Virus record (IMG/VR): IMGVR_UViG_3300009684_000144
Coordinates: 1-27,254 of that record
Direction: 5' to 3' (one strand)
From: a virus
Length of the DNA: 27,254 nucleotides
The notes beneath the pieces were generated by a model. That model was not told the origin of the DNA. It searched no databases and worked only from the letters and a program-made list of their open reading frames with translations. Positions within the stretch are counted from its first letter, which is position 1, and each line of letters opens with the position of its first letter. Below, piece after piece: positions 1 to 18,709 of the stretch. A program made the translations under genes and the position numbers.

Positions 1-743
1 CCTTGAGTGCCTTGAGTGCCTTGATTACCTTGGTATCCCTGGAAACCTTGATTTCCTTGGAAGCCTTGATTGCCTTGGGCACCTTGATTGCCTTGCACCC
101 CTTCGCCTGGAAATCCACGAAATCCCTGTGCTCCTTGACTGCCCTGGACGCCTTCACCTTGATAGCCTTGAAAACCTTGAAAACCAGTTGCTCCTTGATA
201 GCCTTGACGTCCCTGAGCACCTTGAGCACCATTGGCTCCTTGATATCCCTGGAAGCCTTGATTGCCCTGGAAGCCTTGATTGCCCTGCGCACCAACACTA
301 CCATCATAACCTAGTATACCCATACTACCAGTAAATCCAGCACCCTGTGTTCCTTGGAATCCTTGATTGCCCTGATATCCTTGAAAACCTTGATAACCTT
401 GATTACCTTGATAGCCTTGTCGTCCTTGGGCTCCTTGATATCCTTGGAATCCTTGTGATCCAGTTGCGCCTTGATAGCCTTGTCGTCCTTGGGCTCCTTG
501 ATAGCCCTGGAATCCTTGATAACCTTGATTGCCTTGATAGCCCTGTCGTCCTTGGGCTCCTTGATTGCCCTGTCGTCCTTGGGCTCCTCGATTTCCAGTA
601 TCTCCCTTGGTTCCTAGTAATAGTTGAGCTTTTTCAACAGTCAATGTCGAATTTACTGCTGAATCTTGTACAATGAACAGCGTTTCCCCCGGCGTAGGAT
701 TGTTTAAGACGGGTAAAGTAATTAAGTCTGGTCTAGTGGTCAT
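1..743 (-). CDS. Collagen-like fibre protein, 3' end outside window
   Basis: The minus-strand frame opens at an ATG at 741-743 and stays open to the left edge, so the gene is partial. The first ~45 residues form a non-repetitive head (MTTRPDLITLPVLN...), followed by at least 190 residues of Gly-X-Y triplets dominated by GNQG, GAQG, GRQG and GYQG. Collagen-like triplets form trimeric rods, and in phages they occur in tail fibres and other virion appendages. Gln at the third position replaces the hydroxyproline of animal collagen. A GATAAATA box at 772-779, one mismatch from the T4 late octamer, lies 28 nt upstream. The plus-strand open frames in this stretch are reading-frame echoes of the repeat. 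The structural role is inferred from composition. Confidence 0.85.
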   Translation of the reverse strand, partial: MTTRPDLITLPVLNNPTPGETLFIVQDSAVNSTLTVEKAQLLLGTKGDTGNRGAQGRQGNQGAQGRQGYQGNQGYQGFQGYQGAQGRQGYQGATGSQGFQGYQGAQGRQGYQGNQGYQGFQGYQGNQGFQGTQGAGFTGSMGILGYDGSVGAQGNQGFQGNQGFQGYQGANGAQGAQGRQGYQGATGFQGFQGYQGEGVQGSQGAQGFRGFPGEGVQGNQGAQGNQGFQGNQGFQGYQGNQGTQGTQ

Positions 744-825: not shown

Positions 826-2088
826 TTATATTTTCAAGGTGTGCGGGAGTCTAGGTTCGCCGTCTTTTACACAGACCAACCATGCAGTTACCACGGGAAC
901 ATTGATACTGCGCAGCCATTCATTGGGAAACCAAGTTTCTCTGCGGAATTCTTGGAATCTAATTGTGGTATTTCTAATGTACTTGCCTACATTATAGTCG
1001 GTATAATAAAGAAAGCTGTTTTCGTTCCAATAACTTACGTGAGTAGGATCCTGGAATGCTCCGCGCCCATCTGTACTAGGCACTTCAATAAAGGCCCAGC
1101 CGCCATGTGCCAATACCCTATGTATCTCACGCATGGTTTTAATGGGGTCTTTCAAGTGTTCTATAACATGGCTAGCGTTGAGCACACCTACACTGTTATC
1201 AGGTAAGGGAATGCCTTGGTTCAAGTCACAGTTTATATCACCATCCTCTTGATCAATAACCAAGTATCCAGGTTTGCGATTGATGCCACCTCCCATATCC
1301 ACTTTGAGCAGTCCCTTAAGATCAGCATCTTTTTCTGCTAGAGCAACTGCGTAGTAATTAAACAGTTCCACAGTTTTGGTTTGTATATCTTGATTACGTT
1401 TAAGGAATGTGTTTTCTCCAGTGACACGATAGATATACAGAACCTTGGCAATGTGATGCATCTTAGTGGCCAGATAAGTTCTAATACAAAGTTCGTGATC
1501 ATCACAGATAGCCAGTTCAGGATTGTGTCCACCAATCTCATGATAGGTAGTGGTTCGCCATGCTCTAACGTGATCAGGTGCATACCAGATATAACCTATG
1601 CTGTGACTGCTGGGTGCAAATGTATTCATGGCAATTAGATCTCGCTCACCCCATTTGTAATCACGATGCGTCCAACCAAATGCAGGATTGTAGGGAATAA
1701 ATGTATCGGTCATGTGATAAACAGCATCGTCACTATAGGCAAAACCCACTTCAGGATCTTGAAATGCTTGATTCAATTCTTCTAAACAATCTTCAGTAAG
1801 AATGTCATCGTGGTCCACTTCCACTAGGACACTGCCTTCTCCCAAAGAAAATGCTGCCTGTTTTACAGCACCTACATTGGTATTATTGATCTCGGTTCTA
1901 ACGATTCTAACTTTTGAATTTAATCGAATTGATTCAGGGATATGTCTTACCTGGCATTTGCCATTGAGATATAATATCCATTCCCAATCTGTGTATGTTT
2001 GATTGACAATACTAGCGTAGAGTTCTAATAAAAAAGTGGGGTCTTTTTGATTGTGAGTAGGGGTAATAATGCTAAATTTATGTTTCAT
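826..2088 (-). CDS. GT2 glycosyltransferase fused to SAM-dependent methyltransferase
   Basis: This 420-aa protein has two domains. Residues 1-~240 are a GT-A fold family 2 glycosyltransferase: the opening FSIITPTHNQ, then VDHDD at 91-95 as the metal and sugar-nucleotide DxD-type site. Residues ~258-400 are a class I methyltransferase of the type-11 kind: DLNQGIPLPDNSV near 288-300, then ASHVIEHL at 305-312, followed by the helix REIHRVLAHGG. Phage enzymes of this build are expected to add and methylate sugars on virion proteins, DNA or host glycans; the substrate cannot be read from sequence. The ATG lies 3 nt after the stop of the oxygenase-like gene upstream, with no clear Shine-Dalgarno, so coupled translation is likely. 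Confidence 0.85.
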   Translation of the reverse strand: MKHKFSIITPTHNQKDPTFLLELYASIVNQTYTDWEWILYLNGKCQVRHIPESIRLNSKVRIVRTEINNTNVGAVKQAAFSLGEGSVLVEVDHDDILTEDCLEELNQAFQDPEVGFAYSDDAVYHMTDTFIPYNPAFGWTHRDYKWGERDLIAMNTFAPSSHSIGYIWYAPDHVRAWRTTTYHEIGGHNPELAICDDHELCIRTYLATKMHHIAKVLYIYRVTGENTFLKRNQDIQTKTVELFNYYAVALAEKDADLKGLLKVDMGGGINRKPGYLVIDQEDGDINCDLNQGIPLPDNSVGVLNASHVIEHLKDPIKTMREIHRVLAHGGWAFIEVPSTDGRGAFQDPTHVSYWNENSFLYYTDYNVGKYIRNTTIRFQEFRRETWFPNEWLRSINVPVVTAWLVCVKDGEPRLPHTLKI

Positions 2089-2091
2089 GGG

Positions 2092-2658
2092 TTAGTCAAA
2101 AAAGAATAAGTGGATCAATCTAGCGTCATGTATAGTTTGACCAAAGTAAGGGCCTGCTGCATGAATGCACTGAGCATCCATAATCACTAATCTATTATAT
2201 ACATTGGCCACAGAGTCTACAATTTGAAATTTAGTGCTATCTAAATATCCTCCGGCAAATGCCCCATTGATGGTTGCATCACCAGAATGTCGTGCACCAG
2301 TTAGAGTTGATGCTAACAAGTTTGTTCCACTCTGATACGGAGCATTGGGAGTTAGATAGATCATAGCTGCCCATTTTTGCGAGTCGTGATGGTAGACTTG
2401 CGGATCTTTGGCTGTGGTATATTGAAATTTACCACAGTGGCTATGTGATTCATTGAAATGTACAATTGGTTGCCCAATTATTTTTTCAAATGCTTCTCGA
2501 GTGCCATCGGCTATACATTGGTCAATGCTTCTAAAACCTTTGTAGAATCTTAGATCTTCTTGGTATTCGGACTTGAGCGCCAATGATCTAGTATGGTCAG
2601 GATCATCATAGAAATCATCTACGACAAATAGTTTTGGTTTGGATTTTGAAAGTATCAT
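2092..2658 (-). CDS. 2OG-Fe(II) oxygenase-like protein (DUF6445-type)
   Basis: The 188-aa protein has the facial-triad arrangement of 2-oxoglutarate/Fe(II) dioxygenases: H90-x-D92 in VYHHDSQKW, a distal H166 in CIHAAGPYFG, and R180 in DARLIHLFFF as a candidate 2OG-carboxylate ligand. A strand AAMIYLTP follows the HxD, as in the double-stranded beta-helix fold. Such enzymes hydroxylate proteins, sugars or nucleobases. Its position directly before the glycosyltransferase-methyltransferase gene suggests a joint modification pathway, which is inference. A TATAAT on the minus strand at 2669-2674 lies upstream of the ATG. Confidence 0.75.
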   Translation of the reverse strand: MILSKSKPKLFVVDDFYDDPDHTRSLALKSEYQEDLRFYKGFRSIDQCIADGTREAFEKIIGQPIVHFNESHSHCGKFQYTTAKDPQVYHHDSQKWAAMIYLTPNAPYQSGTNLLASTLTGARHSGDATINGAFAGGYLDSTKFQIVDSVANVYNRLVIMDAQCIHAAGPYFGQTIHDARLIHLFFFD

Positions 2659-3319: not shown

Positions 3320-3530
3320 ATGACCATGTTAAAATGAACAGCATATATTGCTTTGAGTCATGCCATTTGACATTCAGTTTGGAATGACGATTCTTACTTT
3401 TGGCCACAGTTGCCTTGTAGGGTTTGAGAGCCTGTTCTATACTTGCTTCGGGGTCTGTGGCCATGTTATGGGCTACAAAGTTATTGAAATAACTACCAAC
3501 GTCAAATCTGTTGTATTGACGCTTGATCAT
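3318..3530 (-). CDS. Small protein of unknown function, coupled to IF-1
   Basis: The 70-aa protein is basic and aromatic-rich (begins [15 protein letters not shown]), with no transmembrane segment or motif I recognise. Its ATG overlaps the IF-1 stop by 4 nt (ATGA arrangement), so it is translated by reinitiation from the same mRNA. It is the last gene before the bidirectional terminator. The basic middle part ([16 protein letters not shown]) would fit nucleic-acid or ribosome binding, but this is only a composition argument. It does not resemble the small ribosomal proteins bS21 or bS18 by eye. Confidence 0.6.
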
Positions 3531-3748
3531 CGTTCTCTATAGGTAATCCGGCACTTTGATAAGTCGTAAACTGACATTTCAGTCTTGACTCGATCACCCA
3601 GCAAGATTTGAATTTTATTTTGGCGCATACGTCCACTGATGTGACCCAATACCAGGGCCTTGTTTTCTAACCTAACTCGAAACATGGCGCCGGGTAGTAC
3701 TTCCTCTACTATACCAGCCATTTCGATTGTATCTTCTGCTTTTGCCAC
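3527..3748 (-). CDS. infA: Translation initiation factor IF-1
   Basis: The 73-aa product is close in length to bacterial IF-1 (about 72 aa) and follows it almost throughout: an [22 protein letters not shown] opening strand pair, then [19 protein letters not shown], then [11 protein letters not shown] at the end, the signature of this single S1-like OB-fold protein. IF-1 binds the 30S A site during initiation and helps IF-2 and IF-3. The start is GTG at 3746-3748, placed directly after the TAA of the preceding gene, so translation is coupled. Family identity is very clear; the role in infection (biasing host ribosomes to phage mRNA) is inference. The GTG start would keep its level moderate. 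Confidence 0.95.
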
Positions 3749-5406: not shown

Positions 5407-5742
5407 ATGAACTACTGGTCAAGAGAAAATACCAAAGAATGGATTGCTCAACTTGAGGATCGAATCGAGGATATTGAGCACTACCTCAATAAAGCCATGA
5501 TATGGTGCGATCAACGTGGCATAGACGACGATAGAGTTGTGTTTATGTGCTGCTTCCTAACCTGCATTTGGGTTAGCCAACTGCGCTGTGAAGAAATAAC
5601 CTATGTTGAACTTATGGAAATCCTGGGCGTAGAAGCCCTGGATAGCGATAAAGAAAAGTTCTACGAACTAGATGATAGATATATAGGACTAACTCATAAC
5701 GAGTTGCTGGCCAACGCTGTTGCCCACTTTGATATTGATTAA
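5407..5742 (+). CDS. Acidic protein of unknown function
   Basis: The 111-aa protein is strongly acidic, with a helical N-terminus ([18 protein letters not shown]) and a hydrophobic Cys-rich centre ([18 protein letters not shown], residues ~45-62) that could be a buried helix or a membrane segment. A GAGGT ribosome site lies 7 nt before the ATG and an exact T4-late octamer lies 17 nt upstream. Its last 4 bases overlap the end of the convergent Fe-S carrier gene. No family is recognised. Confidence 0.75.
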
Positions 5743-6068
5743 ACTGAAAAAGAACTACCGCAACCACAGGTAGTAGTGGCGTTGGGGTTGTTGATTACAA
5801 ATTGTGACCCCATGAGTTCTTCAACATAATCCAAGGTAGCACCCTGCATATACTGCATACTCATTGCATCTACCAATAGAATCATTCCAGGTTTACGGAT
5901 AACAAAATCATCATCATTTTGAGTATCGTCGAGCGTAAATCCATAACTGAAACCTGAACAGCCACCACCTTGTACAAAGGCACGCATCCGGGTATTGGGA
6001 TTGTTTTCTTCGGCTAGGATATCTGCTATTTTTAGTATAGCAGATCCAGTAATTTCAATTTGTTCCAT
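5739..6068 (-). CDS. erpA: A-type iron-sulfur carrier (ErpA/IscA/HesB family)
   Basis: The 109-aa protein has the full length of the family and its three cluster ligands: C37 in [11 protein letters not shown], and C101 and C103 in the C-terminal [12 protein letters not shown]. The central segment with [31 protein letters not shown] matches ErpA/IscA closely. These proteins receive a [4Fe-4S] or [2Fe-2S] cluster from the assembly scaffold and pass it to apo-enzymes. As all ligands are intact, it is probably functional. In a phage it may mature Fe-S enzymes needed during infection; this is inference. It follows a small basic gene by 2 nt in the lysin cluster. The ErpA label over IscA is a best guess. 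Confidence 0.92.
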
Positions 6069-7352: not shown

Positions 7353-10300
7353 TTATATAGTCGTTATCTTTGGTGTCCAGGTGTCATACTCAAAATCATC
7401 TTCCCTTGGCCATGATGAAACAGCATATTCATTGACAAAGAATGTATGGCTACCATTTAATACAAAGTTATAAAGTGTTGTATCTGATGGAAGATCATAT
7501 GCGTTTAAGGAATTTACTACTCTAGGTCCAGTAATAGTGTGTAATTCAGTACCTTGAGTTAGAGTATGAAGTCTTTCTCTAGATACACCCACATTCATTA
7601 ACATTTTTTCAGTGCCGTCGCCTAATATGCAGTTCCAATATACACCATACTCATTGTAGGTAGCATCATTATCTATTGAATACATTTTCTTATCACTAGA
7701 TATGTGAATTTCCTCATAGGTGGTATCATGTTCCTGATTGATTTTATACATTTTTCTATTGCCAAGTTTTACATGCATCAATGCAAGAATTTCATTTATT
7801 TCTCCAAATGCTCCTAAAACTTGATCTCCAACCTTGACATCTTCAATATTGATAAATCTGCCATCTGCCATGGCAATTGATGACCCTGCAAGATAGCAGG
7901 TACATCCAGCGGATGTGCCATCGCCGCCATCTTTATTATGAACTAATAGATCATTAACATAATATGTATGATCATTGTCCAACATTAGATTATATAACTG
8001 CTGTTGAGGTTGATCTTCATATTTTTCAATGCTATCGAGCATTATGTAAGAGCCATCCTTGCATAAAATTTCATCGCCGATGGCCAAATTGCCTATCAAT
8101 ATGTTGCTCAAGTGCGGTTCAAAGCGTTTGGCATTGTCTTGATCAATTGCTTTCCAACCAGACCGAGTCATTACAGGGTGTTCAGCGGTAATAAATTTAG
8201 CAGATCCATTAAATCCGTATAGCGTTCCATCCCGCACATCTGGAATAATTAGTTGTGGACGATCATGTGCGATAACTTGATTAGGGCCAGTTTGCCCAAG
8301 TACAAAGTCACCAACTTTGACATCCTCAATAGCAATTTGTTCACCACTTGCCAGTGTGACTAGCACACCCTTAACAAAGCAGGTCGGGGCCGTGCCGTTG
8401 AACCCACTACCTGTGCCTGTACTAACAGTACCACCGGTGGTAGTACCAACGTTACCACCAGTAGTAGAACCACCACCCGTAGTATTACCAGTAGTAGTAC
8501 CGCTATCCGCAGTATTACCAGTAGTGGTAGTACCTTCGGCAGCAGCGGCAGCAGCGGCAGCACCCAATGAAGCTGGATCCTGCCCCATGACTGCATTTGA
8601 AATTGCCTGAGCGGCGGCTGCGGCTTGTGCAGCAGCACCTTCACTAGCAGCAGCAGCCGCAGCCGCTTCGGATGCAACTGTACTTGGTGTGAAAGATTCT
8701 GCTATCTCACCAGTGACATCATTGGTAAAAGTTGTTATCATTCCTTCGTCATTGAAACTGACAAGACTTATAGTCCATCCACCTTGCACTGCATGGTTGC
8801 CACCGCCTCGCGGACCAGCTGTATATCCAGTAGTTGGTACATAAGACACTGGTATCTGATCAGGTTTTGGATATTCGGCAATAATAGTAGTAACTACACC
8901 ATTGAGATCAAATCCAGTAAATTGATGTGTATATATGCCAGTGCTATCTACAACACCATTTGCATTAATAGGTGTAGATTCTAATTGTGTATATCGTGTT
9001 CCTCTAGTAGAATAATAGTAAGAAGAATAAGGAAGATTACTAGTGGTAGCATAGTTGTTGGTATTGGTTGCAGTACCAGTCTTGCCATTTAAGGTTATAG
9101 CAAGATTACCAATACCATCATCTACTACAGTAAATAATGATTTGCTGGTATTGCCGTTAGGTGTGCCAAAAAAGTCTCCCCAACGAGTAAATTGTACAGC
9201 TTCATTGCCATCATCTGGTCTGGCCGCAGCGGTATCTTTAATACAATATAGATTACTTTGATATGTAACAGCTCGGCCTCCAGGTAACGGAATTCGATAC
9301 ACTTCGCTCCAATTGGGATAGGGATCAGCAGTACGCACTGGTGTGCGAGTGCTCCATACCTGTGTGCCATCGGGTGCCTTTATTACAATGGCAATGCTAC
9401 CTGGACCACTAGAATTTAGAATCTGAAGGTTAATGGTATGGGGGCCTGCTGCTAATGTTACCAATCCAACTTCGCTTGTAGAAAGACTACTGGTAGCATT
9501 TAGTTGCGTCCCACCATCAATATTAAATGATCCCACATTGTCTGCTGCAAATTCCCAAGAAAAGCGACCTGTAGTAGGTGCTGTGAATTTATAATATCTT
9601 GTCAGCGTTATATTAGTTGGATAATCTGTATTGGGGCGTACCCATACTCCATAATCATTTAAGAATTGACAGTAGGCTGATTGAGTAGGAACTTTATACA
9701 ATACTGTACCGTTGCTGTACTTATCGTCAGCTGTGATACCTAAATTATCCACGGTAACAGGCGTAAGACCGTCACTTAATATAGTTGCACTAGGTGTTCC
9801 TTGTACCCCTACACCCATTGTGATATATCGTTTACCTTCGATTATATCGTAACTCATGCCTATTACTGAATTGATAGCAGACTTGGCACTGATCCATGTA
9901 CCTAGGTTTCTAGATTGGTCATTAAGATTTCTAGTCACTGTAAATGTGATACTTCTAGTAATGGTTCTATTACCAACTAGTGTTAGTGATACACTGGCAG
10001 AATAAGTTCCATTGATCTTTCTAACCAGTGGATTAAAAGTAAGTGTAACCTGCCGGGCTGCACGATTAACCGTCATGGTAAAATAGTTATAATCCTGAGT
10101 CAATACAGGATCAGCATAATTTGTATCATATGTGGTATTGGCCACATAACTAAAAACTTGTGACACCAAAGACCCATTTGTGGCAGTTTTACTGATGGCA
10201 GCAGGTAAGAAGGTAAAATCAAATACAGGTTCAGTGACTGTAATGTTTACAGGTGTTGTAACAAAGCCCACGTCATTATCGGCCACTATGACTAGGATAG

Positions 10301-11444
10301 TATTAAATGTACCTTGTCTTATTGAATTATAATATGACATCTTCATTGTTACAGATTGATTTGGTTCTAGAGTTAACGGTTTGGTGGTGTCCCAACTTTC
10401 TTCATAGAATTTAGAACTTAGTCCAGACCCTGCTGGTAAGTTGGCTGTAATTCTACCAATACCCATGGCGGTGTTGCCCGAATTGGTCATAGTCACCAGT
10501 GAAGTTGAAGTCGTTCCGCTGGGCATAGTGATAGTAATAGGCGTTGGCGTAACACTTAGAATTTTGGTCACCGTAAGTCCACTGCCTGTGGTATTGTCTA
10601 GACCCAAGACTTTTTCAGTTTGTGGTAACGCAGGTGTAGGGACGCCGCCGCCAGCGGGCAATGCAACGTCTAATTTTATAGAGTAATGATATTCTACGGT
10701 ACTGGTTATGTCTATATCAGATGGTATAGCATCAGGATCTAATAATACAACTTCTGTTAGTGTCTGTGTTGCACTGATCTTAGAAAAATTTACGGTAATA
10801 CTATTAGCACCCGACGATTCTGTAATTGGAGTTACTGGCAATCCAGTAATGAAGTCAGTGGGACCGTAACCTTGTGTGGATAACTTTACATTTATAGCAT
10901 CAATAAGATCCTGCCATATTGCATCTTGCCCAGAATAGTTACCTGGTGTATAACTTAGTCTAACTCTAATATTACCACCTAGGTTGAAAAAGTAGCGGGC
11001 ATAATCAGCAGTTGACCAAGTGTGACGTACCCGGTGACGACGATTATTTCCCCAGGTTGCAGTAACTGTACTAGTACCGTTGTCAGAATTTACAGCCAGT
11101 TGATTGGCGGCCACTTGAGTACTATTGGCCAAGGCCTGGGTTGCATAGTCATCAAGTGTGTTAACAGTTGCAGCCGTGAGTACAACATTCTCATATTGGT
11201 CTGATGAATAATTGTATGTGCCTATCAATGTGGGACTTAACTTTACTCCTGTTTGATGCACAATACATCTATTGATATCAACATACAAGTTAAACCACTG
11301 TGCAGAAGTGATAGTAGTACCAGTTGTAACAGGAACACTATAAACACCTGTATACCCATAGTTGGTACTCAATACTGTATTGATCTTGCTTTGGATATCA
11401 TTGTATCCTACTGATGTTATAGTGGTGCTAGTAGTTACGGCCAT
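7353..11444 (-). CDS. Large virion surface protein with two tandem Hint domains
   Basis: The 1363-aa protein has an N-terminal head with the phage structural pattern YNDIQSKINTVLSTNYG. Many Thr/Ser-rich beta repeats follow (residues ~100-600). A PA14/carbohydrate-binding-like segment lies near 600-720 (YKFTAPTTGRFSWEFAADN). Ala-rich and Thr/Gly-rich linkers occupy ~918-1015. Hint domain 1 (C1022-N1170) starts CFVKGVLVTLASG, has TAEHPV as the TxxH block and ends VHN. Hint domain 2 (C1183-~1345) starts CYLAGSSIAMADG but ends YAVSS, without the terminal His-Asn. Hint domains catalyse an N-S acyl shift and self-cleavage or splicing. The protein is probably a tail adhesin whose C-terminal part is processed. 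A TGTAAATA late-like box precedes it. Confidence 0.85.
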   Translation of the reverse strand: MAVTTSTTITSVGYNDIQSKINTVLSTNYGYTGVYSVPVTTGTTITSAQWFNLYVDINRCIVHQTGVKLSPTLIGTYNYSSDQYENVVLTAATVNTLDDYATQALANSTQVAANQLAVNSDNGTSTVTATWGNNRRHRVRHTWSTADYARYFFNLGGNIRVRLSYTPGNYSGQDAIWQDLIDAINVKLSTQGYGPTDFITGLPVTPITESSGANSITVNFSKISATQTLTEVVLLDPDAIPSDIDITSTVEYHYSIKLDVALPAGGGVPTPALPQTEKVLGLDNTTGSGLTVTKILSVTPTPITITMPSGTTSTSLVTMTNSGNTAMGIGRITANLPAGSGLSSKFYEESWDTTKPLTLEPNQSVTMKMSYYNSIRQGTFNTILVIVADNDVGFVTTPVNITVTEPVFDFTFLPAAISKTATNGSLVSQVFSYVANTTYDTNYADPVLTQDYNYFTMTVNRAARQVTLTFNPLVRKINGTYSASVSLTLVGNRTITRSITFTVTRNLNDQSRNLGTWISAKSAINSVIGMSYDIIEGKRYITMGVGVQGTPSATILSDGLTPVTVDNLGITADDKYSNGTVLYKVPTQSAYCQFLNDYGVWVRPNTDYPTNITLTRYYKFTAPTTGRFSWEFAADNVGSFNIDGGTQLNATSSLSTSEVGLVTLAAGPHTINLQILNSSGPGSIAIVIKAPDGTQVWSTRTPVRTADPYPNWSEVYRIPLPGGRAVTYQSNLYCIKDTAAARPDDGNEAVQFTRWGDFFGTPNGNTSKSLFTVVDDGIGNLAITLNGKTGTATNTNNYATTSNLPYSSYYYSTRGTRYTQLESTPINANGVVDSTGIYTHQFTGFDLNGVVTTIIAEYPKPDQIPVSYVPTTGYTAGPRGGGNHAVQGGWTISLVSFNDEGMITTFTNDVTGEIAESFTPSTVASEAAAAAAASEGAAAQAAAAAQAISNAVMGQDPASLGAAAAAAAAEGTTTTGNTADSGTTTGNTTGGGSTTGGNVGTTTGGTVSTGTGSGFNGTAPTCFVKGVLVTLASGEQIAIEDVKVGDFVLGQTGPNQVIAHDRPQLIIPDVRDGTLYGFNGSAKFITAEHPVMTRSGWKAIDQDNAKRFEPHLSNILIGNLAIGDEILCKDGSYIMLDSIEKYEDQPQQQLYNLMLDNDHTYYVNDLLVHNKDGGDGTSAGCTCYLAGSSIAMADGRFINIEDVKVGDQVLGAFGEINEILALMHVKLGNRKMYKINQEHDTTYEEIHISSDKKMYSIDNDATYNEYGVYWNCILGDGTEKMLMNVGVSRERLHTLTQGTELHTITGPRVVNSLNAYDLPSDTTLYNFVLNGSHTFFVNEYAVSSWPREDDFEYDTWTPKITTI

Positions 11445-11539: not shown

Positions 11540-12304
11540 ATGAAAACATTTAAACACAGCGGCACATTGGGAGACTTGGTTTATAGTCTACCCATAGTAA
11601 AACATTTTGGAGGGGGCGAGTTTTATCTACATCTTGACCAAATTGACTGGATAGGTAAACATTACTATGGTTCAGAACCCAATCCTTTTCACAAGGGAAA
11701 GATGACACAAGGTGATTTTGAATTCATGAAGACATTCATGCAGGCACAGTCCTATATCACAGACTTTCAGGTATTGGATAGATCAACTGCTATCACACAC
11801 AACTTAGATAGATTTAGGGTTCCTTTTGTGGGACATCCTGGCAACTATGTGGATATCTATGCATCAGTATTTGGGCTGGATCAGGCAACATCGGATCAGT
11901 TGCGCACTACACCTTGGCTCACAGTTCCTACCACTCAAACAGTACCCAATAGACCCATTGTGATCAATCGTACTGCTAGATGGATTCCTGCAACACCTGG
12001 AGCACAGTGGGGAATATGGAAACAGCAGGGCATAGAAGAAAAATCAGTATTTGTTGGTTTACCCGAAGAACATCGGGCATTCTGTCAAGCAACCGGATGG
12101 ACGATTCCACATCAACCTACTCGGACCATGTTGGAACTGGCCGAATATATTGCAGGGGCAGAACAGTTTATTGGCAATCAAAGTGTGGCTCTAAGCATAG
12201 CAATTGGTCTGGGCAAAGAGTTCTATTGTGAGGCCCGTCGTGATATGCCCATAGAGCGAAACGAGTGCTATTTTCCCAAACAACCAAATGGTCATTATTT
12301 CTAA
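11540..12304 (+). CDS. Glycosyltransferase family 9-like protein (heptosyltransferase fold)
   Basis: The 254-aa protein begins FKHSGTLGDLVYSLPIVKHFGG, the glycine-rich loop of GT-B enzymes of the ADP-heptose:LPS heptosyltransferase kind, with GD at residues 11-12. Its end has FIGNQSVALSIAIGLGKEFY, the donor-binding region of the C-terminal Rossmann half. At 254 residues it is shorter than typical ~340-aa heptosyltransferases. It may act on phage or host glycans, but the donor is unknown. It is transcribed opposite to the adhesin gene and appears monocistronic. The promoter places the start codon at +1. Confidence 0.75.
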   Translation: MKTFKHSGTLGDLVYSLPIVKHFGGGEFYLHLDQIDWIGKHYYGSEPNPFHKGKMTQGDFEFMKTFMQAQSYITDFQVLDRSTAITHNLDRFRVPFVGHPGNYVDIYASVFGLDQATSDQLRTTPWLTVPTTQTVPNRPIVINRTARWIPATPGAQWGIWKQQGIEEKSVFVGLPEEHRAFCQATGWTIPHQPTRTMLELAEYIAGAEQFIGNQSVALSIAIGLGKEFYCEARRDMPIERNECYFPKQPNGHYF

Positions 12305-12311
12305 AAATCAG

Positions 12312-12340
12312 TTGACGAGAAGACAAATTCGTAGTATAAT
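12312..12340 (+). promoter_or_regulatory. Early-type promoter of the 51-aa gene
   Basis: TTGACG (12312-12317), 17-bp spacer, TATAAT (12335-12340), with a leader of about 43 nt ending in ACACAAGGAAAAATC before the ATG. Confidence 0.85.
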
Positions 12341-12389
12341 TTACTGGTAGTGAAGATTACTACATTTTATTAACACACAAGGAAAAATC

Positions 12390-12545
12390 ATGCGTTTATA
12401 TGAAGTTATCGTTCGTTTGCCCAATACCTACAATACTGCTACTCTGCAGATGCAGGCCAACAACGATTATGAGTGCAAGCAATTGGCAGAAGCACAGTAC
12501 GGTCGTGGCAACATTGTAAGCCACCGAGATATTACTCCCACTTGA
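12390..12545 (+). CDS. 51-aa conserved phage protein
   Basis: The 51-aa product (begins MRLYEVIVRLPNTYN, with QANNDYECKQLAEAQYGRGNIV in the middle) follows a pattern common in aquatic T4-like phages: a beta strand, a second strand, then an AEAQYG helix. Its function is not known to me. An AAGGA ribosome site lies 6 nt before the ATG and a near-perfect promoter precedes it. Right after the stop come two abutting perfect inverted repeats. Confidence 0.75.
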   Translation: MRLYEVIVRLPNTYNTATLQMQANNDYECKQLAEAQYGRGNIVSHRDITPT

Positions 12546-12551
12546 TCTATG

Positions 12552-12598
12552 AAGAGAATGAGCATCTCATTCTCTTATTACGTTCTATAGAACGTAAT
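12552..12598 (+). repeat. Two abutting perfect inverted repeats
   Basis: AAGAGAATGAG (12552-12562) pairs with CTCATTCTCTT (12566-12576) around a CAT loop. Directly adjacent, ATTACGTTCTA (12577-12587) and TAGAACGTAAT (12588-12598) form a 22-bp perfect palindrome. The first hairpin may terminate or stabilise the 51-aa mRNA; the palindrome looks like an operator for a dimeric regulator or a second hairpin. Confidence 0.6.
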
Positions 12599-12640
12599 GA
12601 ATTTACTTTGCCAATCACAACAACGGCGATCATTTTTAAT

Positions 12641-13492
12641 ATGAATAAGAAAATTGGAATTATACAATCGCGCGGCTTGGGCGATATTGTTATTGCCCTG
12701 CCTATTGCATGGGAATACCACAGTGCAGGTCATGAAATATACTGGCCCATATGCCAAGAATTTGTCAGCAGCTTCAAAGATGTTGCGCCCTGGGTCAATT
12801 GGCTACCAGTGGTAACTGATCCACAGGGCCTATTCTTTTTGGACACGCCCTTGAAGCTGTTGGAACAAAAAGGCATCACTGATTGGGATGACATACTGTA
12901 TCTATATCAGTACCTGAGTTCCGTTCCAGAGAAAACTGATCAGGATCTATTTGCTATGATGAAGTTTGATCAGTACAAGTATGCCACTACAGGAGTGGCA
13001 TTTAAAAAGAAATGGCAATTGGATCAGTGCATCACACGCAACACTCATCGTGAAGATGCATTGTATGCCAAACTGGTCAAACAGCCACGTTATATAGTTT
13101 ATCAAAATCATGCCAGCGATCTCAGTTACGATGTTGATCTCAGTTCAATAGATCCTGAGTTGCAGCGCATCGAAATCACTGAACAAACAGATTGTATCTT
13201 TGATTGGTGCAAGCTGTTGGACGGTGCAGAAATTGTGATATTGATTGACAGTGTGTTTGCCAATTTGATTGATCAATTGGATCTAGCTGCCACGGCGGAC
13301 AAATACTTCATGCGCAAATGGAATCGTAAGGTTGATGGCAATCCTGTATTCATGCAAGAATGGACCTACTTGCCCGTGTCATCCCCCGAGGGAGTGCAGG
13401 TGGGCAGTCTAACTGATAACCCTCCTCCCGAGATGAAGAAGGGCAATGCTGCTCAGATTCTCATGTCTAGATTAGGCAACATCAAATATTAA
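12641..13492 (+). CDS. Second GT9-like glycosyltransferase
   Basis: The start is set at ATG 12641 (283 aa), where the Rossmann strand IGIIQSRGLGDIVIALPIAWEY begins; the longer frame runs back through the 51-aa gene and the hairpins. The GLGDIV loop matches the GT9/heptosyltransferase N-terminal half and resembles TLGDLVYSLP of the first GT9-like gene, suggesting an old duplication. The C-terminal half (WCKLLDGAEIVILIDSVFANLIDQLDL) fits the GT9 donor site. Its last 11 bases overlap the convergent kelch-like gene. No good Shine-Dalgarno is seen. Acceptor and donor are unknown. Confidence 0.7.
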   Translation: MNKKIGIIQSRGLGDIVIALPIAWEYHSAGHEIYWPICQEFVSSFKDVAPWVNWLPVVTDPQGLFFLDTPLKLLEQKGITDWDDILYLYQYLSSVPEKTDQDLFAMMKFDQYKYATTGVAFKKKWQLDQCITRNTHREDALYAKLVKQPRYIVYQNHASDLSYDVDLSSIDPELQRIEITEQTDCIFDWCKLLDGAEIVILIDSVFANLIDQLDLAATADKYFMRKWNRKVDGNPVFMQEWTYLPVSSPEGVQVGSLTDNPPPEMKKGNAAQILMSRLGNIKY

Positions 13493-13778
13493 ATGTATGA
13501 GATACTAGATTAGTCATTGAAACCACATCAAATATATAACCATATCCAAATATTGCTCGATCACCGCCAAAACCAGCAGCAGCCAAGCTGTCTCTTGCTG
13601 TACCAACTCCTGCAACATCTGTACCAACAACACCGGTATTGGTTACAATATTGGTAACAGCGGAGAAGCCGGCACTGGCCAATCCATAACCAAATATAGC
13701 TCGTTCAAATCTGTTTAACGAATAGGACTGTGTGCCATCAGAATACAAAATACCTAAATTATTGAGTTGATCAGTCAT
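13482..13778 (-). CDS. Kelch-like repeat protein, very short
   Basis: The 98-aa protein carries the heptad RAIFGYG twice, at residues 26-32 and 74-80 (48-residue period), with TNLVS/TNIVTNTGVVGTDVAGVGTARDSLAAAGFGGD between. In other phages this repeat occurs many times in long tail-fibre or receptor proteins. Here only about one and a half repeats remain, so it may be a remnant, a small capping protein, or the end of a fibre. It has its own ATG and a CATAAATA late-like box 7 nt upstream, which argues for expression. Confidence 0.65.
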   Translation of the reverse strand: MTDQLNNLGILYSDGTQSYSLNRFERAIFGYGLASAGFSAVTNIVTNTGVVGTDVAGVGTARDSLAAAGFGGDRAIFGYGYIFDVVSMTNLVSHTFNI

Positions 13779-13806
13779 ATAGGCTTATTTATGCTAGATT
13801 GATGCT

Positions 13807-14538
13807 TTAATTTGCCCAGGATCCAGATGATTTAGTATGTATTGTATAGTTAACAACTCTATGTGCATGATCTTTTAATAAGATCATGTGTTGATCGGCC
13901 CTGAACATCAATTCCAAGGGTTCTCTAATGCCTTGTTCCAATACTCTGTTGAACATACGTTTAGCTGAGAACTGATCAATAACATAGGCCCAGGGTCCGG
14001 GCATGACTCTATAGTTGGTATTATGTTCGTGTAGTTTCCCACCTGTATCCAGACCTATTATGGAATTACGTGGTACGAAGTCCATAGGTAGACTATCTAA
14101 CCGTGCAGAGGATTCTAATACAATATGTGGCCTGCCTTGAACCATACAGTGATGCCATATGGTCATGTGATCAAATACCCTGGCAACTTCATGATACTCT
14201 AGTCTATGATTCATTAGACGTACTTGATTGACCCATGTTAGAGATTGATGTGCAGGGGGTATGATTAGATTTTTAAGTTCTACCCCTTGACAGTAGCTGG
14301 GTAGGTTAGTTAAAAAGTTATAGCTGGCAAATTCTGCAACATCTAAATTTAATGCACGGGCTGATTCCCGTGCAGCTTCGTAGCCCGGACCTTGTATTAC
14401 AGATACTGCATTAATTTTATGATCCCAAGAATTAATTAAACCCAAACCATTGACTTGCATTTCGTTTCTAGGGTTGATAAGCATACTATGATCTTCTAAC
14501 ATATTCCAATAATTACTCAAGGGCATCAATGGTTTCAT
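13807..14538 (-). CDS. GT25-like glycosyltransferase paralogue, acidic site altered
   Basis: The 243-aa protein aligns by eye with its upstream neighbour: HMTIWHHCMVQGRPHIVLESSARL (125-148) against HIALWVHCMTINRPIVILEHDAVM, and GPWAYVIDQFSAKRMFNRVLEQG against GLHAYAIDPFMARRLFAKVLTEG. Family 25 enzymes (LPS beta-galactosyltransferase type) use an acidic ExD motif there. This copy has E142-S-S144, so the Asp is lost and metal-dependent catalysis is doubtful. It may be a non-catalytic partner or may have changed donor use. The ATG overlaps the upstream stop by 4 nt (translational coupling), suggesting the pair acts together. Confidence 0.7.
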   Translation of the reverse strand: MKPLMPLSNYWNMLEDHSMLINPRNEMQVNGLGLINSWDHKINAVSVIQGPGYEAARESARALNLDVAEFASYNFLTNLPSYCQGVELKNLIIPPAHQSLTWVNQVRLMNHRLEYHEVARVFDHMTIWHHCMVQGRPHIVLESSARLDSLPMDFVPRNSIIGLDTGGKLHEHNTNYRVMPGPWAYVIDQFSAKRMFNRVLEQGIREPLELMFRADQHMILLKDHAHRVVNYTIHTKSSGSWAN

Positions 14539-15359
14539 TGGCTTACCCCGGGAACACTGTGCGTGTTCTTACGCCCTTGCATGACTGTACCGTCATCCTT
14601 GGCTATGGTACTGAACTTTGCTCTATCACCCTGAAATGCATAGATGCCAGTCTGTATCAGTTCAAAGTCAGTAACTTCTACTATGGTGTCTACTGGATTG
14701 GTCAGGCCTTCGGTTAGTACCTTAGCAAACAATCTGCGTGCCATAAATGGATCAATAGCATAGGCATGTAATCCCATGCTGTATAGATAATTGTAATTGA
14801 TTACAGATGTCATGGGCAGTCTGTGTTCTGCAGGTAGATAATTTTCTGGATCTAGATAATGATTGACCAACTCTGGGTAAGATTCAAGACCTGTTTGCTT
14901 GATTAAATTTGGTATTTCAAACCGGTGACCTAAATATTCTACACAATTATTCTGTGTCATGGTCTTGAATGGTCTGATCATTACAGCATCGTGCTCTAAT
15001 ATCACTATAGGCCGATTGATAGTCATGCAATGAACCCATAGAGCTATATGACTCAGGGCACAGGCAACTTCAGTTACACTTAATGCAGAGTCTAATACCT
15101 TGACCCATGACATGGCATCGGAGTTCTTAAGATGGTCAGGAGTGTATATAATTTTATGATCTGTGCCATCATATGCCCAAAATACTTCAGGGTTAGGTTG
15201 ACCAATCCTTAGACAGCTATTCAATGCTCTTGCAGCCTGTTCTTCACTGTTTGCATTACCCTGGATGGCAATGATCCTGGTTTCGGCTATGGCGGTGTCC
15301 CAATTATAATCTCTATTGAGACCAGCATCTGTTGCCCACTTAAATGTATCAGTAATCAT
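14535..15359 (-). CDS. GT25-like glycosyltransferase
   Basis: The 274-aa protein contains TEVACALSHIALWVHCMTINRPIVILEHDAVM (residues 97-127), the core pattern of glycosyltransferase family 25: a conserved SH-containing helix, a hydrophobic strand, then the acidic E122-H-D124 site. The C-terminal GLHAYAIDPFMARRLF matches the family end. It is presumably active, unlike its coupled downstream paralogue. Its location next to tail-fibre genes suggests modification of fibre proteins or of host polysaccharide. A TATAATTA box lies 6 nt before the ATG. Confidence 0.75.
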   Translation of the reverse strand: MITDTFKWATDAGLNRDYNWDTAIAETRIIAIQGNANSEEQAARALNSCLRIGQPNPEVFWAYDGTDHKIIYTPDHLKNSDAMSWVKVLDSALSVTEVACALSHIALWVHCMTINRPIVILEHDAVMIRPFKTMTQNNCVEYLGHRFEIPNLIKQTGLESYPELVNHYLDPENYLPAEHRLPMTSVINYNYLYSMGLHAYAIDPFMARRLFAKVLTEGLTNPVDTIVEVTDFELIQTGIYAFQGDRAKFSTIAKDDGTVMQGRKNTHSVPGVSQ

Positions 15360-15705: not shown

Positions 15706-16803
15706 TTAAACTATTGCCCCATATATTTTACCATTATTGGTTATTGTTACAGAATAACCCCCGCGATAAATGCCAGCGCCACCAAGTCCGCCTGCATTGC
15801 CATAGTAATCAGTTCCACCATTTGCTCCAAATCCGCCGCCGCCACCGCTGCCGCTGGGGTGAATTGCGTTGCCACCTGCATTACCACCTCTGCCGCCTGC
15901 ACCAGACCATTGAATAAAGTTACCTGTATAATTAGAGTTACCACCGCCGCCACCGCCAGTGGGGTTGGCAACGGTTATTAAGTTTACTCTTCCACCACCT
16001 CCACCACCAGTGTAACTACCACCATTACCGCCAACCCCACTATAATATCCGCCGCCACCACCTCCGGCCTGGCCGCCGCCACCGCCGCCGCCGTAGCCAC
16101 TAACACCACTATAGCGAGGGGCACCACCTGCCCCAGCATCAGTATAGTAGCCATAACCGGATAGGTAATTGTAAATGTAATGTTGGCCGGGGGGATATCC
16201 ACCACCACCTGCACCACTACCACCATCGGGGCCTGCACCTTCGCCGCCGCCACCGGCAATAGCTCCATAATTAATTATTTTTACACCTGAACCACCAAAT
16301 GTCAATCCATATGCTGCACCAGTGCCTAAGTATATGGCAGCGGACCCATCAGTTCCGTAGACCCCGCCACCTCCTTGTCCCATGATATTACCACGATTAA
16401 TCAAGGTAACTCCATTGGGCCAAGAACCACTGATGGTTAAAGCTGCACCGCCTGCTACATTACTATAGACAAATACATCAAAGGGTACAATGATGGTAAT
16501 ATACGAGTTGCCATCCCACCCTTTACTAATTGCCCAGCTGCGCAGATTGACGTTGGTAGTGTCCGAGTCAAATACAGCTTGAGATTGATGGCGAAATTTA
16601 TCTAGCCCAATGGGAACTAGAGTACTATCCGCAGGAATTAATCCATAACCAATATCAGGCAAATCATATCCTACAAAAGCTTCGGTTGTGAATGAATAAT
16701 CAGGCATGGTCTGACGATAGTATTCACCTAGAGATATTGGAGTAGTACCGCCAAACTCATTCTGCAAGTCAAGTAAAGATATAGGACCGGTAGGTAACGT
16801 CAT
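15706..16803 (-). CDS. Polyglycine-type tail-fibre adhesin
   Basis: The 365-aa protein starts with PISLLDLQNEFGGTTPISLGEYYR, an N-terminal pattern shared by phage virion proteins. Residues ~145-350 are glycine-rich with runs of 5-7 Gly separated by short polar loops (GGGGGGQAGG, YTGGGGGGRV). This is the build of T2/T6-type gp38 receptor-binding adhesins, where glycine runs form a polyglycine-II sandwich and the loops contact the receptor. The end SVTITNNGKIYGAIV is a typical beta closure. An exact T4-late octamer lies 5 nt before the ATG. The small gene 15408-15704 follows directly. Confidence 0.82.
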   Translation of the reverse strand: MTLPTGPISLLDLQNEFGGTTPISLGEYYRQTMPDYSFTTEAFVGYDLPDIGYGLIPADSTLVPIGLDKFRHQSQAVFDSDTTNVNLRSWAISKGWDGNSYITIIVPFDVFVYSNVAGGAALTISGSWPNGVTLINRGNIMGQGGGGVYGTDGSAAIYLGTGAAYGLTFGGSGVKIINYGAIAGGGGEGAGPDGGSGAGGGGYPPGQHYIYNYLSGYGYYTDAGAGGAPRYSGVSGYGGGGGGGQAGGGGGGYYSGVGGNGGSYTGGGGGGRVNLITVANPTGGGGGGNSNYTGNFIQWSGAGGRGGNAGGNAIHPSGSGGGGGFGANGGTDYYGNAGGLGGAGIYRGGYSVTITNNGKIYGAIV

Positions 16804-17152: not shown

Positions 17153-17454
17153 CACGGGCGGGCTGTCCGTCGAGGTTACTGTGTACAAGACAGCAGTAGA
17201 GGCACGGTGATCAAAGGTGGTAGAACCCTGAGAATACAGTGAAGAAATCATGAGAATCGTGTGAATCAGCGTGGCACCATTTTACGATAGCCTCCACCGA
17301 CCACAGTGCCTCAAAATATTTTTACTCTAAAACCACCCAAGAAACTGCCGATCGGACCCAAAAACCCGGTGAAAACCCGGTGAAAAACCACCTGTTCTGT
17401 TGTTTTTTCACACATTTTTGACCCTTTTTTCATCCTGGGTATCAAGTATCCCAA

Positions 17455-17483
17455 TTGACCTACAGTGTGATCTAGTGTATAAT
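17455..17483 (+). promoter_or_regulatory. Promoter of the tRNA gene
   Basis: TTGACC, 17-bp spacer, TATAAT (17478-17483); the mature tRNA begins 25 nt after the -10. Confidence 0.85.
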
Positions 17484-17507
17484 AACTACTTGCTGTGCAA
17501 GCAGTGT

Positions 17508-17585
<78 letters not shown>

Positions 17586-17595
17586 TTCCCACAGT

Positions 17596-17631
17596 AATAC
17601 CAAAGTAAGTTTAGGGTGAATACCAAAGTAA
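17596..17631 (+). repeat. Direct repeat AATACCAAAGTAA, two copies
   Basis: Exact 13-mers at 17596-17608 and 17619-17631, 23 bp apart, between the tRNA and the DnaA-box array. Possible iteron-like or regulator sites. Confidence 0.5.
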
Positions 17632-17670
17632 ATCTAACCTTTCACTACACAGATCGGACTTGTCAACAAG

Positions 17671-17821
17671 TTATCCACAAGTTATCCACAGTCAAAGAGT
17701 TATACACATGATATCCACATGATATCCACAGTCAAAGAGTTATACACATGATATCCACATGATATCCACACCTTTATCCACAGGCCGGACTTATCCACAG
17801 TCAATCCACAAGTTATCCACA
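17671..17821 (+). other. Phased DnaA-box array, putative replication origin
   Basis: Seven exact matches to the DnaA-box consensus TTATNCACA lie on one strand: 17671, 17682, 17700, 17740, 17774, 17791 and 17813 (start positions). Five related 9-mers (ATATCCACA at 17711, 17722, 17751 and 17762; CAATCCACA at 17802) fill the gaps. Successive starts differ by 11, 18, 11, 11, 18, 11, 11, 12, 17, 11, 11 bp, so most boxes face the same side of the helix. Part of the array is an exact 40-bp tandem repeat (17701-17740 against 17741-17770). DnaA filaments assemble on such same-strand arrays at origins, and dense arrays also titrate DnaA. No gene is supported here. Confidence 0.7.
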
Positions 17822-17854
17822 CCTTACCAACAGACTTGTCCAAAGGCGTGAAGT

Positions 17855-17891
17855 GCCAGACCTGTTGTGAGAATACAACACAGAATCTGGC
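17855..17891 (+). other. Hairpin between the DnaA array and the first early gene
   Basis: GCCAGA (17855-17860) pairs with TCTGGC (17886-17891), with a second, bulged pairing CTGTTGT/ACAACACAG inside, followed by AAAAA. It may be a terminator shielding the array from upstream transcription or an origin element. Confidence 0.45.
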
Positions 17892-17900
17892 AAAAATGAG

Positions 17901-17929
17901 TTGACAAAGTGGTAAAACCTGTATATAAT
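17901..17929 (+). promoter_or_regulatory. Early promoter of 17936 gene, predicts leaderless mRNA
   Basis: TTGACA (17901-17906), 17-bp spacer, TATAAT (17924-17929). ATG 17936 lies at the expected +1. Confidence 0.85.
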
Positions 17930-17935
17930 ACACAC

Positions 17936-18283
17936 ATGGACACAAAGAACACACCCCGTAAGCGGCGACAAGATCGCAATCACATCATATACGAACTGGT
18001 AGTCAACGGTTTGAACTACATTGGTGTCACTGCTAAGACAGAGACTACTGTATTGAAATCGGTTCGTGTACGTGCTAATAAACACTGGTACCGTGCTCAC
18101 AGTGAGAACAAGGCCTGGTTACTTTGCGAAGCCCTGCGTGGTCTTGACAGTAAAGATGACATTGAGATCTTGGTGCATGAAGTCATACGTGGCAAAGCGG
18201 CTGCTCATAAGCGCGAAGTTGAGATCCGTAGACTGATTAACCCTGCACTGAACACGGACATTCGGGGTGACTTGACAGTGTGA
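17936..18283 (+). CDS. Probable GIY-YIG nuclease-like protein
   Basis: The start ATG 17936 (115 aa) is used because the alternative upstream start lies inside the promoter. Residues 16-32 (HIIYELVVNGLNYIGVT) match the GIY-YIG strand pair in the form xIY...YIG, followed by an R-rich helix and a H (RVRANKHWYRA), then E in KREVEIRRLINPALNTD, which fits the catalytic Glu and the closing NPxLN of the family. At 115 aa it contains little beyond the nuclease core. It may be a homing-type or host-DNA-degrading enzyme. Its 3' end carries the -35 of the next promoter. Confidence 0.6.
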   Translation: MDTKNTPRKRRQDRNHIIYELVVNGLNYIGVTAKTETTVLKSVRVRANKHWYRAHSENKAWLLCEALRGLDSKDDIEILVHEVIRGKAAAHKREVEIRRLINPALNTDIRGDLTV

Positions 18284-18300
18284 AGATTCCGTGTTATAAT
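18272..18300 (+). promoter_or_regulatory. Early promoter of 18327 gene
   Basis: TTGACA, 17-bp spacer, TATAAT (18295-18300). The -35 is inside the end of the GIY-YIG-like gene. Confidence 0.9.
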
Positions 18301-18326
18301 ACAGTCATTGCAACAAAGGAGACGCT

Positions 18327-18485
18327 ATGGGATCGTGGCTATTCAAAGACTTTCGAATTGGACGCATGTTTCACTTGAACGGCAATGACTATGTCAAGCA
18401 GAGCACCAGAACTGCTCGTATGCTGAGCACGGGACGAGTGTTCTACATTGGGCAGACAGAACTCATTTACCCTATCGCATACTAA
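18327..18485 (+). CDS. 52-aa protein of unknown function
   Basis: Begins MGSWLFKDFRIGRMFHLNG and ends ELIYPIAY. It is a short beta-rich basic protein with the look of a single barrel-like fold (GNDYVKQSTRTARMLSTGRVFYIG). An AAAGGAG ribosome site lies 6 nt before the ATG, 26 nt past a perfect promoter. The 67-aa gene follows 9 nt later on the same transcript. Confidence 0.75.
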   Translation: MGSWLFKDFRIGRMFHLNGNDYVKQSTRTARMLSTGRVFYIGQTELIYPIAY

Positions 18486-18494
18486 GGAGCACAC

Positions 18495-18698
18495 ATGAGC
18501 GGAGCATTCTTCTATATTGAATACCAAGACGGCGGTGTAGTCGAGAGGGAGTTCAAGACTCCGGCTCAGGCTCGTCGGGCCTACGAGAATTATGCTCGGC
18601 AACCTGAACTCACGGCTCGGGGTTGGGGATGGGACACTCGGTACGAGGCACCTGAATTGACCCAGCAGATCTTTGCAAAGAACTTGACCCTGGTCTGA
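18495..18698 (+). CDS. 67-aa protein of unknown function
   Basis: Begins MSGAFFYIEYQDGGVVERE, followed by a helix PAQARRAYENYAR. AAGGAG overlaps the stop region of the preceding gene and sets the start. It has no promoter of its own. The stop codon falls inside the loop of the terminator hairpin at 18686-18709. No domain recognised. Confidence 0.75.
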   Translation: MSGAFFYIEYQDGGVVEREFKTPAQARRAYENYARQPELTARGWGWDTRYEAPELTQQIFAKNLTLV

Positions 18699-18709
18699 AA
18701 AGGGTCTTT
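18686..18709 (+). terminator. GACCCT/AGGGTC hairpin
   Basis: GACCCT (18686-18691), 9-nt loop, AGGGTC (18701-18706), then TTT. The same arms recur before several other promoters in this half. Confidence 0.6.

Follow-up and report, generated by a model that had tools for sequence, protein, structure and literature searches.

Genes at the locus

The DNA analysed in this work is a virus record of 27,254 bases (IMG/VR record IMGVR_UViG_3300009684_000144), and this whole stretch is referred to as the window. Near its start, three genes follow one another on the minus strand: a gene for a predicted 2-oxoglutarate (2OG)-Fe(II) oxygenase (OX), a gene for a fused GT2-methyltransferase (GT-MT), and a collagen-like gene. 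The features of the locus, with the evidence for each, are as follows (SAM, S-adenosylmethionine).

2092-2658, minus strand: OX, stand-alone 2OG-Fe(II) oxygenase of 188 aa (PF20043, phrog_1644, alignment of 54 domains, AlphaFold model)
2383-2391, minus strand: predicted Fe(II) ligands of OX, H90-H91-D92, HxD motif (H90 and D92 invariant in 54/54; codons read)
2161-2163, minus strand: predicted distal Fe(II) ligand of OX, H166 (invariant in 54/54)
2119-2121, minus strand: R180 of OX, the presumed 2-oxoglutarate-binding arginine (invariant in 54/54)
2089-2091, minus strand: 3-nt gap from the OX stop to the GT-MT start (sequence)
826-2088, minus strand: GT-MT, fused GT2-methyltransferase of 420 aa (Pfam Glycos_transf_2 and Methyltransf_11)
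1315-2088, minus strand: GT2 (GT-A) domain of GT-MT, about residues 1-258, with the motif D92-H-D94-D95 (PF00535, alignment, fold)
826-1314, minus strand: class I SAM methyltransferase (MT) domain of GT-MT, about residues 259-420 (PF08241, alignment)
1-743, minus strand: collagen-like fibre gene with a (Gly-X-Gln)n rod, the candidate substrate (sequence, rod composition)

An earlier note, made from the letters alone, had placed an oxygenase-like protein and a fused GT2-methyltransferase at 826-2658, and both open reading frames (ORFs) are present there on the minus strand. The OX gene ends with GAC TAA, followed by CCC and then by the ATG of GT-MT at position 2088. Because the two genes share a strand and lie only 3 nt apart, a single transcript, as the note had assumed, is likely. 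The collagen-like rod mentioned in the note is real as well: its ORF begins with an ATG at 743(-), 82 nt downstream of the GT-MT stop and on the same strand, and it is cut by the contig start, so that 247 residues of (Gly-X-Y)n are visible.

Family, conserved residues and predicted fold of the two enzymes

Scans of viral contigs gave 133 confirmed relatives of OX and 129 of GT-MT, of which 80 were kept in each case; with these numbers, both proteins are far beyond chance. The closest near-full-length relatives in viral contigs were 63% (OX) and 71% (GT-MT) identical. By profile score OX is a member of DUF6445 (PF20043; 1.7e-7, 31.9 bits against a gathering cut-off of 24), to which Pfam assigns no function, and of phrog_1644 (7e-25), which PHROGs names 'minor coat protein'. 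DUF6445 was the sole Pfam match at E ≤ 1, so neither a 2OG profile in general, nor the profiles of collagen prolyl or lysyl hydroxylases (P4H, PLOD/L230), nor Tet_JBP matched OX at that threshold. There was no NCBIfam match, and a PDB sequence search with either the single sequence or a profile returned nothing meaningful. Since no Pfam 2OG profile matches, the description of OX as oxygenase-like rests on conserved residues and predicted fold. Fifty-four domains, among them five second copies, were picked from the scan loci so as to cover the range of sequences, and in their alignment H90, D92, H166 and R180 do not vary (54/54). We take these residues to be the iron triad and distal arginine motif of 2OG-Fe(II) oxygenases, and the role of R180 in binding 2-oxoglutarate is presumed from the superfamily.

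The AlphaFold model of OX has a mean predicted local distance difference test score (pLDDT) of 92.7 and shows the double-stranded beta-helix fold. Its best PDB match was human OGFOD1 (Z 14.0, root-mean-square deviation (rmsd) 3.1, 159 aligned residues, 18% identity), followed by a Trichoplax prolyl hydroxylase (Z 13.4, rmsd 2.7, 147 aligned), the prolyl hydroxylase PHD2 (Z 13.4, rmsd 3.2, 149 aligned) and the small-molecule epimerase SnoN (Z 13.3, rmsd 3.5, 157 aligned). The P. putida P4H and the aminoglycoside enzyme HygX were also found. Among the 50 fold matches listed, the characterised ones are 2OG oxygenases or close kin, and a few are uncharacterised proteins. The residues and the model indicate that OX is a 2OG-Fe(II) oxygenase with predicted catalysis. 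Because the top matches are tied, the fold identifies the superfamily without deciding between substrates.

For GT-MT, both domains proposed in the earlier note exceed the curated Pfam cut-offs: Glycos_transf_2 (PF00535) with 2.8e-13 and 50.6 bits against 23.3, and Methyltransf_11 (PF08241) with 1.6e-9 and 38.7 bits against 21.2. D92, D94 and D95 of the GT domain, and G266, D279, E310 and H311 of the MT domain, are invariant in 39/39 aligned sequences. The model (pLDDT 91.8) matches the GT2 enzymes chondroitin polymerase (Z 22.6) and SpsA (Z 21.1), in a fold search dominated by the GT domain rather than the MT domain.

Conservation of the pair and fusions in phage relatives

GT-MT is present in 74/80 loci of the OX scan (52/58 distinct) and OX in 51/80 loci of the GT-MT scan (35/47 distinct), the loci lacking the partner being in part cut contigs or distant relatives. 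By comparing 80 distinct pairs, 63 were found to be neighbours at most 40 nt apart (frames taken stop to stop), 58 of them in the OX-GT-MT order of the window and five in the reverse order; the other 17 are further apart or otherwise placed. In the window, the oxygenase and the glycosyltransferase are not in one chain. Among 87 distinct near-complete OX, on the other hand, 48 form the C-terminal part of a longer protein behind a GT2 domain, 12 lie directly downstream of a GT2 ORF, 26 are stand-alone like that of the window, and one is arranged otherwise. The longest fusions (for example in loci L113 and L027) carry a Methyltransf_24 domain ahead of the GT2 domain. Hydroxylation and glycosylation would thus be physically coupled in many relatives through the GT2-OX fusion.

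Linkage to collagen-like and fibre genes in phages

A collagen-like gene occurs in the locus of 29/87 distinct OX, in 23 of them within 3 kb, many of the loci being cut short; where about 5 kb is available on both sides, it occurs in 14/18 distinct loci of the OX scan. The genes of one locus (L017) run as follows: three collagen genes, two 2OG oxygenases, a GT2-OX fusion, GT-MT, a head-tail adaptor and a neck protein. The two further oxygenases, directly before GT2-OX (L017:3517-4813), belong to 2OG-FeII_Oxy_3, and relatives of either were found in 36/58 distinct loci of the OX scan. A neck gene is present in 32/58. As a control, 80 neck-protein loci were taken, and among those with at least 5 kb upstream a collagen gene accompanied 7/8 with the pair and 3/28 without it, although seven of the eight pair-bearing loci are close relatives (nearly one clade), so the comparison is confounded by kinship.

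Whole records were compared by a run pattern in which 13 GG recur every 9 bases, as Gly-X-Y codons would give, with the reading frame left unchecked. The 22 records were hand-picked longer contigs and two isolates, with L022 and L136 (both >50 kb) left out, and the 11 controls were neck contigs of at least 30 kb without the pair in the examined stretch, which are shorter on average. A long Gly-X-Y run was found in 18/19 OX-bearing records (17 IMG/VR contigs and the isolate DSL-LC02) and in 3/11 neck records without OX in the examined stretch (Fisher p 2e-4, and 6e-4 after dropping three near-duplicates). The pattern matches number only four in the record of L126 and only two in that of the control L206. 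Two records have the run and GT-MT, or its GT part, with no OX found: L158, where OX was sought in the examined stretch only, and S-CRM01. In the isolate Synechococcus phage DSL-LC02, the OX relative sits between tail-fibre and collagen-like genes and beside genes for FkbM-type and mannosyltransferase proteins.

Relatives in bacterial genomes

One scan of bacterial genomes with OX gave 22 relatives. A collagen-like ORF is present in 14/22 of their loci, nine of these being from Pandoraea; counted as lineages, the share is 5/13 (Thiothrix, Pandoraea, Roseateles, Massilia and a metagenome-assembled genome of Ignavibacteriae), some of the other loci being short contigs. The Ignavibacteriae genome has many collagen-like places, so adjacency to OX says little there. 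In two Thiothrix genomes, OX is accompanied by a convergent GT-MT homologue (38-39% identity), which carries both Glycos_transf_2 and Methyltransf_11, and by a collagen-like gene at a distance of about 2.1 kb. The Thiothrix locus looks chromosomal by eye, and no OX at 1e-30 was found among 369 genomes of its class beyond these two.

In Pandoraea, Roseateles and Massilia the rod is 169 to 1276 nt from OX. Rods were counted with a query from one Pandoraea genome, so divergent rods may be missed. OX occurs at 1e-20 or better in 11/32 Pandoraea genomes, and the same 11 have a rod at 5.4e-49 or better. A rod lies near OX in every one of them, though in G438 this neighbouring rod scores lower (2e-32) than the best match, which is on another contig. 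Of the 21 genomes without OX, one has weak rod matches (2.7e-8). This co-occurrence gives a Fisher p of 8e-9, uncorrected for kinship. Joint transfer of two linked genes would equally give the Pandoraea pattern, but a module is recognised by just this kind of linkage. Among 399 genomes of the order of Massilia, five contain an OX-like gene (cut-off 1e-20) and 15 a rod (cut-off 1e-15), both being found in Massilia only.

The bacterial clusters of rod, PP-loop enzyme, OX and radical SAM enzyme (loci L169-L172 and L179) were scanned for families in L169 and L179. The PP-loop enzyme of Pandoraea and Roseateles is WbuX-like (TIGR03573, 1e-27 and 2e-26, below the cut-off), and the radical SAM/SPASM enzyme is near the peptide maturases FxsB/YhhB (6e-86 to 5e-93, below the cut-offs). 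No glycosyltransferase was found among the scanned OX neighbours in these two genera. The radical SAM neighbour points to protein maturation, and the PP-loop neighbour may hint at a sugar. A common N-terminal motif, with the look of a peptide leader, is seen by eye in the rod and in the PP-loop protein.

Composition of the rods

In 61 counted triplets of the window rod, position Y is Gln in 82%, with no Pro and one Lys, and position X is mainly Tyr (21%), Asn (18%), Ala (18%) and Phe (18%), again with no Pro; one Gly-Phe-Pro lies outside the counted tracts. The rod had been called rich in modifiable residues, which is not so for Pro and Lys, both nearly absent, and is so for Gln, which is abundant, and for Tyr, Asn and Phe. 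In 53 OX loci with a rod (4524 triplets), Y is Gln in 55%, Thr in 16%, Pro in 4.0% and Lys in 1.3%, and X is Pro in 25.6%. Gln takes 96% of Y positions in Pandoraea rods; its share is 4.9% in six neck loci lacking the pair, which come from few lineages. For comparison, Table 4 of PMC3368898 gives Gln at Y as 13.0% for collagens of viruses and 18.4% for those of Gram-positive bacteria. In the rods of Thiothrix and Ignavibacteriae, Thr exceeds Gln. As a marker of the cassette, Y-position Gln is therefore suggestive but weak.

Since Pro and Lys are scarce at Y, OX is unlikely to be an ordinary Y-position collagen prolyl or lysyl hydroxylase, and this candidate was set aside. Hydroxylation of Pro at position X may occur in relatives, whose rods often have Pro there, with 0/61 in the window. 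The remaining candidate targets would be Gln, Tyr, Asn or a fibre-head residue.

Proposed function and alternative explanations

We propose, with moderate confidence, that OX and GT-MT are a fibre-maturation cassette acting on a tail-fibre protein of the phage, most likely the adjacent rod. OX would hydroxylate side chains of this protein, most likely in the (Gly-X-Gln) rod, the GT2 domain of GT-MT would then add a sugar to the hydroxyl made by OX or to another one, and the MT domain would methylate that sugar. The order of hydroxylation, glycosylation and methylation, which the earlier note also had, is what we infer. A virion protein as the substrate gains support from the co-occurrence of the OX family with collagen-like genes, seen in phages and in several bacterial genomes, and from the position of the pair amid fibre and neck genes in related phages. 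Thus, of the two substrates that the note had offered, virion protein or DNA, it is the first that is favoured by the collagen linkage and the gene context.

A more specific form of the proposal is possible, and we hold it only tentatively: the DUF6445 subgroup would be a dedicated prokaryotic collagen-maturation family that hydroxylates the Y residue of (Gly-X-Gln) rods, probably Gln, and the hydroxyls would then be glycosylated and methylated in phages or processed by radical SAM and amidotransferase-like enzymes in bacteria. Gln as the target, the boldest choice, is weakened by the Thr-rich rods of Thiothrix and by rods without OX.

Several observations weigh against a fibre-maturation cassette. 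The share of distinct OX with a collagen gene is only 29/87, though many loci are cut by contig ends, and in the GT-MT scan it is 13/47 of the distinct loci and 7/14 of those with about 5 kb on both sides. In some lineages OX or GT-MT stands apart from fibre genes. The record of L079 carries OX without a Gly-X-Y run. L133 has GT-MT without OX in 13 kb and without a collagen run in its 164.7-kb record, and in S-CRM01, whose record has no OX match, GT-MT lies near psbA. In the order of Massilia, four of the five OX-like genomes are without a rod (their OX matches are weaker, 1.5e-22 to 1.8e-35). Collagen genes are also found without OX, as in G194, whose rod is 72% like that of Pandoraea and which has no OX at 1e-20 or better. 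The window rod nearly lacks the usual collagen targets at Y. Small-molecule enzymes are within one Z unit of the best fold match (SnoN 13.3, OGFOD1 14.0), the Pandoraea PP-loop neighbour is similar to an N-acetyl sugar amidotransferase, and the OX relative of S-SSM7 is inside a cluster of sugar genes.

The last of these observations also suits a different function, which we regard as rather unlikely, namely that the cassette alters surface glycans of the host (lipopolysaccharide or its O-chain) against superinfection, with OX oxidising a sugar or lipid part and GT-MT adding a methylated sugar. In S-SSM7 the OX relative is among genes for UDP-glucose dehydrogenase, an epimerase and glycosyltransferases, and genes that look by eye like those of nucleotide-sugar metabolism lie upstream in L005 and L027. 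Moreover, PMC7029224 interprets the glycosyltransferases of pelagimyophages in this way, and HygX and SnoN, which are 2OG enzymes of sugars or small molecules, are among the fold matches. The linkage of OX to collagen-like genes in phages and several bacteria argues against such a function, as do the position of the pair between fibre and neck genes in L017 and the frequency of the neck gene in the OX-scan loci.

It is distinctly unlikely, in our judgement, that OX acts on a glycan of the fibre (by oxidation, epimerisation or demethylation) and not on an amino acid. The GT2-OX fusion suits a sugar as well as a peptide substrate, the matches to HygX and to the SnoN epimerase would fit a sugar, and so would the likeness of the bacterial PP-loop neighbour to WbuX, an N-acetyl sugar amidotransferase. 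However, OX of Pandoraea and Roseateles is near a rod and a radical SAM enzyme that resembles peptide maturases, with no glycosyltransferase among the scanned neighbours, and a peptide substrate is favoured for this reason.

The pairing of a 2OG oxygenase with a glycosyltransferase is a known pattern in DNA modification, and hypermodified DNA, in which a base would be hydroxylated and then glycosylated and methylated, was the other substrate named in the earlier note. Apart from this resemblance, the extra methyltransferase domain of L113 matches phrog_2675 'DNA methyltransferase' (7.8e-10). On the other hand, no profile of the TET/JBP type or of a DNA glycosyltransferase matched OX or GT-MT in Pfam, PHROGs or NCBIfam, the pair has structural genes around it, and bacterial OX tracks collagen genes. 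With almost no profile support, DNA modification was set aside as highly improbable. That OX is a structural 'minor coat protein', as in the phrog_1644 label and the RefSeq annotation of S-SSM7 (YP_004324316.1), S-SSM4 and other relatives, has a very low probability and was rejected because of the invariant catalytic residues and the predicted 2OG-oxygenase fold, with the fusion to GT2 domains and the occurrence in bacterial genomes also contradicting a label that is probably a propagated misannotation.

Comparison with known systems

In PMC9546862, mimivirus L230 is described as a lysyl hydroxylase and glucosyltransferase for viral collagen. As with L230 and animal LH3/PLOD3, a 2OG oxygenase encoded by a virus is coupled here to a glycosyltransferase beside candidate collagen-like substrates, and in 48/87 phage relatives the two are fused. 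Unlike them, the oxygenase of the window belongs to DUF6445, it is unfused, the glycosyltransferase domains are of GT2, there is an extra methyltransferase, and the rods are almost without Lys. The cassette is thus a parallel to the L230 system and not a member of it, since its oxygenase family and its glycosyltransferases differ and the target residue probably does too. It also shares with collagen P4H, including that of Bacillus anthracis, the link of a 2OG oxygenase to collagen-like proteins, and the OX fold matches PHD2 and the P. putida P4H, but Y-position Pro is 0/61 in the window rod and 4% in the loci of relatives, and no P4H profile matches. The ribosomal prolyl hydroxylases OGFOD1/Tpa1 include the best fold match of OX, with identity of only 18% and a different gene context. 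In the clusters of Pandoraea and Roseateles, the same OX family occurs beside (Gly-X-Gln) rods, and radical SAM (FxsB/YhhB-like) and WbuX-like enzymes replace the glycosyltransferases of the phage cassette. Glycans on virion proteins of a phage, as proposed here, have a precedent in mycobacteriophages, although we know of no paired oxygenase or collagen rod there. That mycobacteriophage virion proteins carry glycans is taken from a citation of Freeman 2023 in PMC12619734. Our literature search, which covered titles and the starts of abstracts, returned no paper on DUF6445 and no report of an oxygenase-glycosyltransferase cassette of this kind. Bacterial collagen-like proteins are described in PMC8968730 as mostly unmodified, with few exceptions named.

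Other features of the window

A second sugar cluster lies at 11540-15359 beside a Gly-rich fibre-like gene (15706-16803). Its members are a GT25 protein (9.6e-13), the neighbour of which is 25% identical to it, and two ORFs judged heptosyltransferase-like by eye, neither of which had a family match above the cut-off, the second being also without a PDB match. The human collagen galactosyltransferases GLT25D1/2 go by the same family name, GT25. The minus strand further encodes an IF-1 homologue (3527-3748; PF01176, 1.9e-22), an IscA/HesB-type iron-sulphur assembly protein (5739-6068; PF01521, 7.6e-17), which also matches the phage family phrog_17776, and, with two Hint-type domains in tandem at the C-terminus, a 1363-aa protein (7353-11444), possibly a self-processing structural protein.

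The region 17200-27254 has a row of early-promoter-like units (TTGACA, 17 nt, TATAAT) before small plus-strand ORFs, often followed by TTACACACACTAAGGAG ahead of the ATG. The window contains 22 exact matches to the promoter, where 0.05 would be expected; this region accounts for 20 of these, all on the plus strand. Seven DnaA-box-like sites (TTATNCACA) are found in the 151 bases of 17671-17821, all on the plus strand, and the whole window has nine against 1.95 expected. This segment is possibly a replication origin.

Implications

The occurrence of one OX family with collagen-like genes in phages and in unrelated bacteria suggests a little-noticed maturation of microbial collagens, as in animals. 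The cassette gives DUF6445, a family without a function in Pfam, a concrete class of candidate substrates, and it is relevant to the stability, shielding or host specificity of phage fibres. It is also a possible source of hydroxylated and glycosylated bacterial collagens as materials. If the (Gly-X-Gln) rods are indeed hydroxylated at Gln, phages and bacteria would have a counterpart of the animal hydroxylysine-glycoside system, made by different enzyme families on a different residue.

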